Assembly: GCA_027624955.1 (NCBI GenBank)
Contig: JAQBTG010000041.1
Span: 1-32,799 of the forward strand
Direction of reading: 5' to 3'
DNA from: Pseudomonadota bacterium
GTDB lineage: Bacteria > Pseudomonadota > Alphaproteobacteria > UBA828
DNA length: 32,799 nucleotides
In this document: piece after piece, positions 10,266 through 28,459 of the stretch
Position numbering within the stretch: the stretch's first letter is position 1
Layout of the letters: each line of letters starts with the position of its first letter
Translations under genes and position numbers: made by a program
The notes under the pieces: model-generated
What the model was told of the DNA's origin: nothing
The model's input: only the letters and a program-made list of their open reading frames with translations
Databases searched by the model: none

Positions 10266-10579
10266 GCAAAGTTCTCCATCCGCACAATCGATCGCCCGGC
10301 AACTCTGGCGTGCGATCTTGCAATTTCGTCGTGTTCGACGCGGTCGAGATTTATGCACGCTGCGTGGTGCACAGTCCAGGACTCTGATCCAGAAGAAATT
10401 TTTCGGCGCCGCATCGGGGGGGAAACTTAAAAAAAACTTCTCTGAATCAGGCGCCGAGCCCGGTTACAGTTTAGATTTTACTTTAAAACCGTTCCACACC
10501 TATATTAATTATATTAGTAATGACAACAATTTAAGCCATTGAATATATTGTATATTATTCACTATTACTTGTTAACATT

Positions 10580-10600
10580 TTAACCACAGTTTTATCCACA
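10580..10600 (+). promoter_or_regulatory. Paired DnaA boxes upstream of nrdJ
   Basis: TTATCCACA at 10592-10600 matches the DnaA consensus exactly, and TTAACCACA at 10580-10588 differs at one position, 12 bp away in the same orientation. In E. coli nrdAB, DnaA boxes upstream of the promoter tie dNTP synthesis to replication initiation. The same role is likely here, but an origin function is not excluded. Confidence 0.6.
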
Positions 10601-10734: not shown

Positions 10735-10835
10735 AGTATTTGAACCGAAAGGGTTTATTCGACCTAGATCGGAAAACCGGATCGGAGTGAAACAATGGTT
10801 GATAGTTGGCGAAAGTTTGTTGGGGGGGCGAGGTT

Positions 10836-23528: not shown

Positions 23529-24218
23529 TTACCGCCCTTCCGCCTCAGCAAGTGCCAACCGAGCCAGGGGTATAGTTATCTGCCGCTGCTCGGCGAGCGC
23601 AAGGCGATCTATCTCCGCCGCAATGCTGCGGGCGGCGGAGAAAGAACGTTCCATTCTGGCCAGCAGAAACGAGATAATTTCCTCCCCAATCAGCAATTGT
23701 CGATCTTCAAACATTTTTCGCATGACGGCGCTCAACACCATGTCGTCAGGATCGGCAATCGATATTGCCGGCATGGCGCGAAGGCGGGAGAGAAGGTCCG
23801 GGAGGCGAAACCCCATACGCCCCGGCGCTTCAAGTCCGGTGAATAGAATGTGCCCGTTCCTTTCGCCTATCAAATTGTAAAGATGCAAAAGCGTCTGCTC
23901 CGGGACATCGGCATTGATATTTTCGATTACCAGCGCGGGGGCGTTTGAAATTATCTCCGCCGCATCCCGCCCGCGAAGCGCCATCGCGGCAACCTTGGTG
24001 GCCCCACTCCGCACCCGCCAAATTTCAGCCAAATGCGTTTTTCCGCATCCGGGCGAGCCGTAAAACGAAAGGCCGGTCGCCGGCCAATCAGGCCAGCGGT
24101 CAATCCACAGCAACGCATTTTCATTACATGGTGCTGCGATGAAATCCTTTCGGCCCTGCGCCGTCCGGTGGCCAAGGTCGAGCGGAATCTGAACGGTCTC
24201 GCGCCTTTGCTTGGGCAT
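23529..24218 (-). CDS. hdaA: DnaA-related regulator HdaA
   Basis: Hda/HdaA bound to the sliding clamp stimulates ATP hydrolysis by DnaA and so prevents re-initiation of replication. The 229 residues begin with a clamp-binding motif QIPLDL (residues 10-15), followed by a DnaA-like AAA+ fold: Walker A GSPGCGKTH (53-61), a degraded Walker B ALVIENIN and a sensor-like RLPDLLSRLRAM. It is shorter than DnaA and lacks its DNA-binding domain 4. The start is ATG, 5 bp after the permease stop. The order permease-hdaA-ppk1 is a known alphaproteobacterial arrangement. Confidence 0.93.
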   Translation of the reverse strand: MPKQRRETVQIPLDLGHRTAQGRKDFIAAPCNENALLWIDRWPDWPATGLSFYGSPGCGKTHLAEIWRVRSGATKVAAMALRGRDAAEIISNAPALVIENINADVPEQTLLHLYNLIGERNGHILFTGLEAPGRMGFRLPDLLSRLRAMPAISIADPDDMVLSAVMRKMFEDRQLLIGEEIISFLLARMERSFSAARSIAAEIDRLALAEQRQITIPLARLALAEAEGR

Positions 24219-24223
24219 CTACT

Positions 24224-25330
24224 CTAGGGTTGCTGCGTTTCGGAAACTTCGTCCGTCTTAGCCATCTCTTCGCCGCCAAGATAAATATTGCTTTCGAGAT
24301 ATTGGCCGATGCCGAAACGAATGATTACGCCCATCAATGCCGCGACCGGTAAGGCAATCAGCATGCCGACGAATCCGAATAGGGTGCCACCACCGAGAAC
24401 GGCAAAGATGACCCACACCGGATGCAGTCGAATACGATCACCTACCAGCTTGGGCGTAAGAATCATGCCTTCGGCAAGTTGGCCAACAATGAAAATACCG
24501 GCGACGACGGCAATTCGCCAACCCTCATCAAATTGGAGAAAGGCCAAACCGACACATATTATCAGGCCGCCCAACGACCCGAGATAAGGAACGAACGATA
24601 GGAGTCCGGCGGCCAAGCCGATCGCCAGGCCAAATTGAAGTCCTGCGGCACTCAGAGTCGCAGCGTAAAAGATGCCCAGTATGATGCACACCATTCCGGT
24701 GCCACGTATAAAACCGGAGAGCGTGCTGTCCATGAGGCGCGCCTGCTCGCGAATGGTCTCGGCCTGCGCTTTTGGCAACCAGCCATTCAACCGAGCGACA
24801 ATCGAATCCCAATCGCGCAACAAATAAAATGTGACGACCGGCGTGATGAACAACAAGGCGAGCAAGTTAACCAACGCCATCCCGCCAGCCCAGACGTTGC
24901 CCAGCATGCCGAGGACAAACTGTGCCGCACGCTCGGAAAATTGCTCGATCACCGCGTCAGCGCGATCGGCTTGTTCCGTGTCTAACTTATTCGTCCAGCG
25001 TTCGACCAAGGGCTCGGCCCACCCCCGAACGGACTGAAAATAATTGGGCAGGTTGCCGAGAAAATCGACGATCTGCCTCTGCAACAGCGGCACTGCGAAT
25101 ATCAGAAACAAAACAACAAGGATCGTAAATGCAGAGGTAATGATGGTGGTGGCAAGAGTCCGGGAGAGGCCGGCTTTCTCAAGCCGATCGGCGACCGGAT
25201 CGAGAAAATAGGCTACCGCCATTCCGGCCACAAAGGGCAGCAGGATGCTTTGAAAGAGCAGCAGCAAGATGATCACAACGGCGAGCGCCGCCAGCCAAAT
25301 TCCTGTAAAGGTGCGAATTTTCATTGTCAT
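24224..25330 (-). CDS. AI-2E family (PerM-like) membrane permease
   Basis: 368 residues with about eight hydrophobic segments, beginning IWLAALAVVIILLLLFQSI and FVAGMAVAYFLDP. It includes the family's conserved FVPYLGSLGG and the late GGGTLFGFVGMLIALPVAA. AI-2E proteins are inner-membrane permeases of uncertain substrate; some export the quorum signal AI-2, others are Na+/H+ antiporters. ATG at 25330 or six bases later at 25324 are both possible. It lies 21 bp after the DUF2066 gene and 5 bp before hdaA, so it is part of that operon. Confidence 0.92.
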   Translation of the reverse strand: MTMKIRTFTGIWLAALAVVIILLLLFQSILLPFVAGMAVAYFLDPVADRLEKAGLSRTLATTIITSAFTILVVLFLIFAVPLLQRQIVDFLGNLPNYFQSVRGWAEPLVERWTNKLDTEQADRADAVIEQFSERAAQFVLGMLGNVWAGGMALVNLLALLFITPVVTFYLLRDWDSIVARLNGWLPKAQAETIREQARLMDSTLSGFIRGTGMVCIILGIFYAATLSAAGLQFGLAIGLAAGLLSFVPYLGSLGGLIICVGLAFLQFDEGWRIAVVAGIFIVGQLAEGMILTPKLVGDRIRLHPVWVIFAVLGGGTLFGFVGMLIALPVAALMGVIIRFGIGQYLESNIYLGGEEMAKTDEVSETQQP

Positions 25331-25351
25331 GGCGTCACAGCTATCATGGAA

Positions 25352-26623
25352 TTATAGATTCTTCTCGCTCGGTCTACTCTGCCCACTGGTGACCTCACTC
25401 GGCAATACCCAGCCGCCAGATTCAAAATTCAAGGCGAGATTCGATTGTGCGAGCCCCAGCATTAATTGTTCTTTCTCGCCGAAATAACGTAGCAACACAT
25501 CGGCTTGCCCGCGCGATAATTTAGCCAAATCCACACTGGCAACCACCGCCAATTCACGCAATCGACGCCGGGTTTCAACCCACTCCGATAAAGATTCTAG
25601 CGGCACCACAATGCGCATCTCGTTCTCATGCCCAAAGCGCAGCATGTTGGCCTGCTTCCAACCACTTTCTATATGCGCCACGACGCGCGCCACCGCGCGC
25701 GCCAACAGGTCTTCTCTGCTTTCGCCGCGCGCGCCGCGCAACAACTCAGTCGACGGTGATGGCGTTGCTGCCCCGACCTGATGGATAGTTAGCTGCAAAA
25801 TTGCGCCCTCCACGGGCTCGCGGACCCGAGGGCTGCTGGCTACGTCAGTTTCTGCGGCATCGCCAGACGGGTCACCACCGGCATCACTGACGTTCCCTCC
25901 ATCGACATCGGGATCGTCTTCCACCGGCCAGTCCGGAAGCTCCAGATAAGCCGAGGCAACGACAACTTCCTGAGTGCCATATCGTTCGGCCAGACTGAAA
26001 AGTGCCTCGCGCGATGGCGCGAGGGCTTGCGAGGGCTCGATCGCCGCCATGTCCATGACGTCTCCGAGCGGTAGGATCAAGGGAACTAGGCCCTCATGGG
26101 CCGGGCGCGCCAACCATGCGTTACGCCAGTCAGCTGGCTCGAGCCACAAGGAGGCGCCGTTACCGGCATCAAATATCGGTAAAAGAAGGACGTTGTTGCT
26201 ACGTGTCTCGGCAAAGCGAATTTTTTGCTGTTGTAGCAATTTTCTAACTGCTATTTTATTAAAGTCAAAAATTAAACTTGCTCTATATCTTGTTGAAGAT
26301 ACTAATTCTTTTTCTATTATATAGCCGTCAACTAGATCCGCCACCTGGGAGGTTTCGAGAACTGGCACGAGCACGCGATCGGCCGACAACACCAGGCGTT
26401 GGAGGAGGCGTTCGAAAGCCTGTCGTTGGCCATTGGCCAGGGCCACGGACCGTGCTTCAGCAGCCGATTTGGCGGAGGAATCCACAGCGATATCCCGCAC
26501 CGTGTATACCGAATCCGCTTTCACGGCACCCGAAGAAAGGGTGACGCAGAGGGCGAGCAATCCAGCGAGAACGCTAACTCTCCGTAAGGTTCGCGGCTGA
26601 ATCATTACAGAAAGCCCAGACAT
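25352..26623 (-). CDS. DUF2066 domain exported protein
   Basis: 423 residues with an N-terminal signal-like segment (VSVLAGLLALCVTLSSGAVKA), so the protein is probably periplasmic or lipid-associated. The DUF2066 body is recognisable in AFERLLQRLVL, YRASLIFDFNKIAVRKLL and NNVLLLPIFD. A low-complexity acidic linker (residues about 235-265) separates it from a C-terminal region. Function is unknown. It heads the operon with the permease, hdaA and ppk1. The part coding for about residues 100-137 is strikingly AT-rich (26221-26320) with rare-looking codons such as AGA, ATA and TTA. ATG at 26623 or 26605 are both possible; neither has a clear ribosome site. Confidence 0.85.
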   Translation of the reverse strand: MSGLSVMIQPRTLRRVSVLAGLLALCVTLSSGAVKADSVYTVRDIAVDSSAKSAAEARSVALANGQRQAFERLLQRLVLSADRVLVPVLETSQVADLVDGYIIEKELVSSTRYRASLIFDFNKIAVRKLLQQQKIRFAETRSNNVLLLPIFDAGNGASLWLEPADWRNAWLARPAHEGLVPLILPLGDVMDMAAIEPSQALAPSREALFSLAERYGTQEVVVASAYLELPDWPVEDDPDVDGGNVSDAGGDPSGDAAETDVASSPRVREPVEGAILQLTIHQVGAATPSPSTELLRGARGESREDLLARAVARVVAHIESGWKQANMLRFGHENEMRIVVPLESLSEWVETRRRLRELAVVASVDLAKLSRGQADVLLRYFGEKEQLMLGLAQSNLALNFESGGWVLPSEVTSGQSRPSEKNL

Positions 26624-26688
26624 AAAGTATGTTGCGAATGCGCGGCCATCTCAGGGAGGGGCTCCCTTGAAAAGCGGAATACAATAAC

Positions 26689-27402
26689 ATGAGCAGGCGA
26701 AAAAAAAACGATAGCGCGGGTGGGCGCGAAGGCCCGGCAAGACAACTGAGACTTGCTGTATTGATATCTGGCAGTGGAACCAACCTACAGGCACTGATCG
26801 ACGCATGCAGCGAGGCCGACTATCCGGCCAGGATATGCTTGGTCATCTCCAATAAGGACAATGCCGGCGGCCTCGCGCGCGCGGAAAACGCCAACATACC
26901 AACCTTGATAATCCGCCATACGGATTTTGAAGCACGCGGCGCTTTCGATGACGCGCTCACCGCGGCGCTCGAGGCGGCAAATGTGGACCTGGTCTGTCTC
27001 GCCGGGTTCCTGCGTGTGCTCGGACAGCCATTTGTCGAGCACTGGCAGGACCGGCTCATCAACATTCACCCTGCCCTGCTGCCCGCCTTCAAGGGCCTGC
27101 ACACCCATAGGCAGGCTCTTGAAGCCGGCGTGCGCATCGCCGGCTGCACAGTTCACTACGTGCGAGCCGAAGTCGATGTCGGGCCGATTATCGCCCAGGC
27201 GGCGGTCGCCGTCCTTCCGGGAGACAGCGAGGAAAGCTTAGGCCAGCGAGTCTTGAAACAGGAGCATCGGCTTTATCCGCTCGCGGTTGAACTTATCGCC
27301 CGCGGAAAAGTACGGATAGAAGGCGGAAACGCCCACCTGCAGTGCGCTTGGGCCAGAGAAGACGCGTTGCTGATCAACCCACCGCCGGCGACCAGGAAAT
27401 AG
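26689..27402 (+). CDS. purN: Phosphoribosylglycinamide formyltransferase
   Basis: PurN transfers a formyl group from 10-formyl-THF to GAR in purine synthesis. The 237 residues have a 20-residue basic N-terminal extension before LAVLISGSGTNLQALIDA. The catalytic set is Asn/His of INIHPALLPAFKGLHTH and Asp of EVDVGPIIAQA. The ATG at 26689 is the only reasonable start. purM, usually its neighbour in an operon, is not present; the DUF2066 operon lies divergently across 65 bp. An intrinsic terminator follows the stop. Confidence 0.95.
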   Translation: MSRRKKNDSAGGREGPARQLRLAVLISGSGTNLQALIDACSEADYPARICLVISNKDNAGGLARAENANIPTLIIRHTDFEARGAFDDALTAALEAANVDLVCLAGFLRVLGQPFVEHWQDRLINIHPALLPAFKGLHTHRQALEAGVRIAGCTVHYVRAEVDVGPIIAQAAVAVLPGDSEESLGQRVLKQEHRLYPLAVELIARGKVRIEGGNAHLQCAWAREDALLINPPPATRK

Positions 27403-27435
27403 AAAAAGGCCCGCGGCGAGACGCCAGCGGGCCTT
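27403..27435 (-). terminator. Bidirectional terminator between purN and phasin
   Basis: AAGGCCCGC and GCGGGCCTT pair, with an inner GGCG/CGCC stem. Read on the minus strand, the hairpin is followed by TTTTTC, so it is strongest for the phasin transcript; on the plus strand the tail is poor. Confidence 0.8.
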
Positions 27436-27455
27436 AATCTTCGATGCTATCGAGT

Positions 27456-27863
27456 TTAGCTGGCGTTCTCGGCGAAGGTCTCGACCACGCCGTCGACGCG
27501 GGCACGAATCGGCGCAATCGCGTCATTCGCGGTCTTCACGGCCATCTCAGTAATCTTGCCTGATTCCGAAACATAGTTATCGAATGCGCTGCGCGCCCAA
27601 TCCGCTTGCATTTCCGCCGCATCGGTCGGATTCTTCGCAGAAAAAATGGCTTCTGCTGCTGCGCCATTGCGTTCAAAGGCACCTTTGGCGAAGGCTAACC
27701 AAGCTTGGTTGACGCTACCGAAGCCCTGCGCAGCGATACTTGACGCCGCAACGAAGGCTTCCATGTTTCCGCGCCCGGCATCAGCCAGTTTCTCGAAGGA
27801 ACCGTTGGCATCCCAACCGTTGGCGAAAATGTTTCCGTTGGTCTTTTTCTTTTGTGTCGGCAT
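27456..27863 (-). CDS. Phasin family protein
   Basis: A 135-residue amphipathic, mostly helical protein of the phasin family, which coats polyhydroxyalkanoate granules. The C-terminal pattern WARSAFDNYVSESGKITEMA and VKTANDAIAPIRARV is typical. The basic N terminus (PTQKKKTNG) has no signal peptide. ATG at 27863 has GGAG nine bases upstream. A strong promoter with TGC repeats lies just upstream. No PHA synthase is in the window, so the link to PHA rests on family and promoter. Confidence 0.88.
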   Translation of the reverse strand: MPTQKKKTNGNIFANGWDANGSFEKLADAGRGNMEAFVAASSIAAQGFGSVNQAWLAFAKGAFERNGAAAEAIFSAKNPTDAAEMQADWARSAFDNYVSESGKITEMAVKTANDAIAPIRARVDGVVETFAENAS

Positions 27864-28294: not shown

Positions 28295-28459
28295 CTATGT
28301 TTCAATACTGAGATAGTTAAACTTATATTTATTTTACCCTTCTAATATTGAACTGTGCACAAAGTCTTGGTTTTTTTCTTCTTTATAAGCATTTAAATAC
28401 CATCTCGAAATTGCCCAATTGGCGTCTCAACAGTGCCAAGCCATCAGGAATGACCCTTA

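Follow-up and report, generated by a model that had tools for sequence, protein, structure and literature searches.

The AT-rich patch within the DUF2066 gene studied here contains a short motif that is fixed in position, is written in synonymous sites and recurs in separate lineages of Alphaproteobacteria. On balance, and from comparative evidence, we favor the view that the patch is an embedded cis-acting nucleic-acid element bound by something. The original prediction had offered three causes for the patch, namely, a gene-conversion tract from an AT-rich donor, selection for slow translation or weak mRNA structure, and an embedded control site. It was supported only in part: the embedded control site survives, because separate lineages have a synonymous motif in common at one specific position, and the conversion tract does not. 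The window, meaning the whole stretch of DNA that was analyzed (32,799 nucleotides), carries the following features relevant to this locus.

23529 to 24218, minus strand: gene that we take to encode an Hda/DnaA-like ATPase, downstream of and co-oriented with the DUF2066 gene
24224 to 25330, minus strand: gene of a membrane protein, presumably AI-2E/PerM-like judging by its sequence; starts 21 bp downstream of the DUF2066 gene, an order kept in the genus
25352 to 26623, minus strand: DUF2066 gene, open reading frame of 423 aa (Pfam PF09839, 1.2e-20)
26219 to 26323, minus strand: AT-rich tract, codons 101 to 135, 22% GC, delimited by composition and by the dips of orthologues
26285 to 26300, minus strand: 16-nt core ATCTTCAACAAGATAT, codons 108.3 to 113.3; the cross-lineage consensus is ATCTNCANNRCGTTAY
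26689 to 27402, plus strand: gene that we assume to be purN, divergent, 65 bp from the DUF2066 start

The composition of the patch was as first described. Positions 26221 to 26320, which span codons 102 to 135, hold exactly 23 G+C in 100 bases between flanks of 54% (26121 to 26220) and 62% (26324 to 26423) GC. The reading frame stays open throughout, within a gene matching PF09839, and the reported switch to AGA, ATA, TTA, GTA, and AAA codons is present. Only 3 of the 34 third bases in these codons are G or C, against a mean of 15.6 and a minimum of 6 in 20,000 within-gene synonymous shuffles. Furthermore, no 100-mer with fewer than 29 G+C arose in 200 third-order Markov sequences of the window's length. 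In a genome sample of 387,112 bases (the window and 20 further stretches, with 316 open reading frames of at least 120 aa), the patch was the most AT-rich 34-codon window (0.23, versus 0.34 for the runner-up). Among the reading frames taken as genes in the window, the next-lowest 100-mer after the patch reached 41%. Outside those frames, two low-GC 100-mers were seen at 10496 to 10595 (21%, below the patch) and 28300 to 28399 (24%), upstream of long plus-strand reading frames at 10806 and 28460, respectively.

The dip in GC at third codon positions (GC3) occurs at identical codons in all five same-genus orthologues examined (L002 to L006), with GC3 of 20 to 40% in codons 101 to 125 versus 44 to 76% in the following 25 codons. 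Protein identity among these genes is 57 to 68%, and the dip is therefore old. As independent genomes share the trait, an assembly error is unlikely to account for it. One of the five, L003, matches CAJXFT010000023.1, from an uncultured Alphaproteobacteria MAG, at 100% identity along 4,272 bases, which places the genus among uncultured alphaproteobacteria. Another genus of the same family (L007) also dips, and genus g6 of that family does not. Thus, the comparison of orthologues shows the same AT-rich tract as an ancient trait, the very outcome that the original prediction had named as speaking against the patch as an anomaly.

To place these genes in the class, roughly 90 genes were fetched from the 309 genomes that gave a DUF2066 match. 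Before any count, we removed L061 (the same gene as L052) and the duplicates L066, L068, L072, L081, L162, L164, L165, L170, and L172; the short, distant matches L192 to L201 were left out of the alignment, and L016 and L056, two near-identical copies in one genome, were both counted. The 141 DUF2066 genes were scanned end to end for synonymous AT dips, and of the 12 strongest, 10 begin at codons 98 to 109, the other two beginning at 220 and 387. Further strong GC3 dips were noted in L087 at codon 220 and in L073, L084, and L127 at codons 386 to 387, a small second cluster (window numbering). The dip threshold is passed by 16 of the 141 genes, with L150 and L187 passing without the core, while L017 has the core with a weaker dip (z of -2.1). 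The final element set has 15 genes, which represent only about 5 to 6 lineages and were defined after scanning. Genes that dip at the position of the patch fall in our families f1, f27, f31, and f169, and f29 dips more weakly at the same place. In each of ten element-bearing loci (L090 to L095, L098, L100, L099, and L075), the patch is the AT-richest intragenic window. The AT bias at synonymous sites spans codons ~100 to 123, extending to 135 in the source species.

The element is discrete in its presence or absence, and a gene tree built without codons 95 to 135 shows it to be polyphyletic, because its distribution requires six changes, at least three of them forced by well-supported branches. 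Such a history would mean either an old element with frequent losses or several separate gains. Since 126 of the 141 scanned genes, those of genus g6 included, do not have it, the element is dispensable; within the order of G339, it is found in 4 of 10 genomes.

On the coding strand, the consensus of the core reads A-TCT-NCA-NNR-CGT-TAY, is position specific and is common to several alphaproteobacterial lineages. Ser109 is encoded by TCT in 12 of the 15 element genes and by TCA in 1, whereas at codon 110, nine genes use TCA and none uses TCT (Fisher test, 2e-5, with genes treated as independent). The last two bases of codon 110 are CA in all 15 genes, whether it encodes Ser, Pro, Ala, or Thr, and Arg112 is CGT in 11 and AGA in 4. 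The combination of TCT109, NCA110, and CGT or AGA112 occurs in 12 of the 15 element genes versus 0 of the 126 others. Across codons 108 to 112, third-base agreement between lineages is 0.64 versus 0.33 expected from the codon usage of the patch, a value reached in 0 of 1,000 simulations; outside the core, it is 0.37 versus 0.36 expected (210 of 1,000 simulations). Codon 105 is likewise prominent in the per-site list of third bases. Consequently, the constraint on synonymous sites exceeds what codon usage explains and falls at the same position in different species, the pattern by which an embedded regulatory element is recognized. With a motif score computed by leaving out one clade at a time, 14 of the 15 element genes score 4.9 to 17.0 and the 126 others at most 3.2, the exception being L006 (-4.8).

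The copy in the source species, ATCTTCAACAAGATAT, has two mismatches from the search consensus and carries AGA instead of CGT as its arginine codon, as do three of the five same-genus orthologues. The core has thus drifted in this species while the AT bias stayed, and because the drift lies at the arginine codon, the most AT-rich copy, that of the window, is not the one with the best core. Judged by eye from the core-region sequences, the reading frames other than that of DUF2066 contain stops in several lineages, and no palindrome or direct repeat typical of regulator sites was seen in the core. A TTAA-spaced pattern at codons 117 to 122, also noted by eye, was dropped, as it is set by the reading frame.

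Searches beyond the gene point to specificity for DUF2066. When 15 genomes were searched with a 54-nt profile of the element, the DUF2066 site was the top match in every one (E of 1.3e-13 to 2.7e-8), with the next match anywhere at E of 0.013. Over 386 genomes of the class, seven had a match with E below 1e-10; each of these lies in DUF2066 and belongs to the profile's own source sequences. The next matches (G183, 2e-7; G121, 7e-7) are also in DUF2066 but have an incomplete core. Apart from DUF2066, pattern and profile searches for a regulon gave only a few chance-level matches. As judged by these searches, the element is rare and gene specific. Relocation of the motif was considered in 50 loci, almost all from genomes that lack the element, and was discarded, as the positions of all 23 matches fit the homologous DUF2066 site. 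A close copy of the core occurs in G046 and G061 (L227 and L228, near position 1500; E of 0.013 and 0.024 per genome), between genes that we take to be trpD and a polysaccharide deacetylase gene. We did not retain these matches as a second site, as chance could well yield them over 15 genomes. The exact core pattern was also found near position 1500 of L210 (G048), in an AT-rich stretch of an SGNH-hydrolase-like reading frame. No paper describing the element was found in the open-access literature searched.

Several explanations that require no sequence-specific factor were weighed against these observations. The idea that each lineage acquired, by recombination into the gene, a short piece of DNA from an AT-rich relative would suit the polyphyletic distribution, with its six changes of which at least three are forced, and AT-rich relatives do exist (L016 and L020). 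However, the AT-rich g5 relatives have no core, and patch protein identity between element-bearing lineages is hardly raised (0.466 versus 0.442 for other pairs of similar overall identity). The dip of all five same-genus orthologues also tells against a conversion tract from an AT-rich donor: at 57 to 68% protein identity, equilibration of the synonymous sites is to be expected, and the bias would have to be maintained. A transferred tract is thus largely refuted, and we give it hardly any credence. Locally AT-biased mutation, or a site attracting an AT-preferring nucleoid protein without any sequence-specific role, accords with the flanks, where composition is biased without site identity, and with the genus, in which the bias reaches codon positions 1 and 2 and the amino acids. 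Nevertheless, the third bases of the core agree across lineages beyond composition, and a mutational cause would need to have struck separate families, each time at the same codons, which makes this explanation very improbable. Selection of rare AT-ending codons, at which ribosomes would pause during N-terminal folding or export, draws on AGA, ATA, TTA, and GTA, which are enriched in the patch when it is compared with the remainder of the six same-genus genes. Additionally, in the AlphaFold model (mean pLDDT of 78), the patch is predicted to encode a β-hairpin (98 to 108 and 112 to 121) and the following helix, with the core close to the turn. On the contrary, the patch of the model lies inside the N-terminal domain and so seems not to coincide with a boundary between domains, and the usual codon for Arg112, CGT, is not the one that these genes use least for arginine. 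Since the adjacent serines use opposite AT-ending codons, the codon choice in the core does not follow rarity alone. We therefore regard a slow-translation zone as quite unlikely to be the cause of the patch. Of the originally proposed slow translation or weak mRNA structure, a role as a side effect is possible, but TCT109 versus TCA110 is left unexplained, and shuffled sequences are not clearly less accessible than the core.

A target at the RNA level deserves more weight. In this explanation, the AU-rich mRNA segment and its core would form an sRNA pairing or RNase E cleavage site, setting how fast the DUF2066 mRNA decays in comparison with the genes downstream. In favor are the asymmetry of the core, its place on the coding strand, and the A-rich triplets found ahead of it in several lineages; the other exact pattern matches also lie on the sense strand of the adjoining or surrounding reading frame. 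Against this, the accessibility of the core is barely above that of synonymous shuffles (mean z of +0.6 in unpaired probability over 15 genes; 0.48 versus 0.40 in 60 motif-negative genes), and no pairs of a conserved RNA structure were predicted at the element. Rfam returned only subthreshold matches in 25300 to 27500, none of them in the patch, and a strict 16-nt pattern search found no complementary sRNA gene. With neither a conserved fold nor an Rfam family at gathering score, and with little extra accessibility, a DNA site seems weakly likelier than an RNA target, which we consider unlikely. An intragenic sigma-70 promoter was also rejected: over 15 genes and both strands, with approximate weights, the best-scoring sites rarely beat synonymous shuffles and do not share a position from gene to gene; even in the most favorable cases (L003 and L163, sense), 6/100 shuffles reached the observed score.

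For the embedded cis-acting element, the narrower reading of the patch as a DNA-binding site is one that we propose tentatively, as a possibility short of even odds. In such a site, a trans-acting factor would bind the core, and the AT-rich flanks would assist as bendable or easily melted DNA. Our best guess is that a sequence-specific regulator adjusts the transcription that passes through DUF2066 into the AI-2E/PerM-hda genes downstream; alternatively, its output might be the divergent purN/purM promoter ~0.4 kb away. The gap between DUF2066 and purN (26624 to 26688) is 65 bp here and ~1 kb in some relatives, where the insert is presumably purM. Gene order does not predict the element, as the arrangement purN/purM, DUF2066, (AI-2E), hda, and ppk was seen both with and without it. 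The host gene itself has an N-terminal helix (12 to 30) that appears to resemble a signal peptide, and its product is likely an envelope protein; in the open-access literature searched, no paper had the function of DUF2066 in its title. Taken to its full extent, the proposal is that of an ancient intragenic operator in the DUF2066 gene of several alphaproteobacterial families, in which AT-rich flanks around ATCTNCANNRCGTTAY would serve an unrecognized regulator and link an envelope gene to the adjoining hda and purine genes, with independent loss in most lineages. As a whole, this scenario is speculative and, in our estimation, rather doubtful. If true, it would be a clear example from nature of a second message kept at the synonymous sites of a bacterial gene, visible since GC-rich codon usage sets it off, and it would open a way into an envelope gene that has been little studied and lies next to that of the DnaA regulator hda. 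A local GC dip within a gene can then flag an embedded element and not foreign DNA.

Known regulator sites offer some precedents. Because DUF2066 is likely an envelope protein, the motifs of CenR and ChvI were considered. The CenR motif of Alphaproteobacteria is given as TGA-N8-TGA (PMC9275681), and this direct repeat is absent from the core in a comparison of the cores by eye. The ChvI motif, TTGC-N3-GCAA (PMC9731502), is a GC-rich palindrome, likewise absent from the core by eye. The conserved intragenic sigma-54 sites reported for Escherichia coli (PMC4591121) resemble this element in being a conserved signal inside coding sequence, a binding signal there and a candidate here. Unlike them, the element has no sigma-54 consensus recognized by eye and is set in an AT-rich stretch of 70 to 105 nt. 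The intragenic PhoB sites of E. coli, which are reported to be mostly transcriptionally inert (PMC10294691), share with it the location of regulator sites, putative in our case, within genes. In contrast to the PhoB sites, the synonymous sites of the DUF2066 element look constrained.
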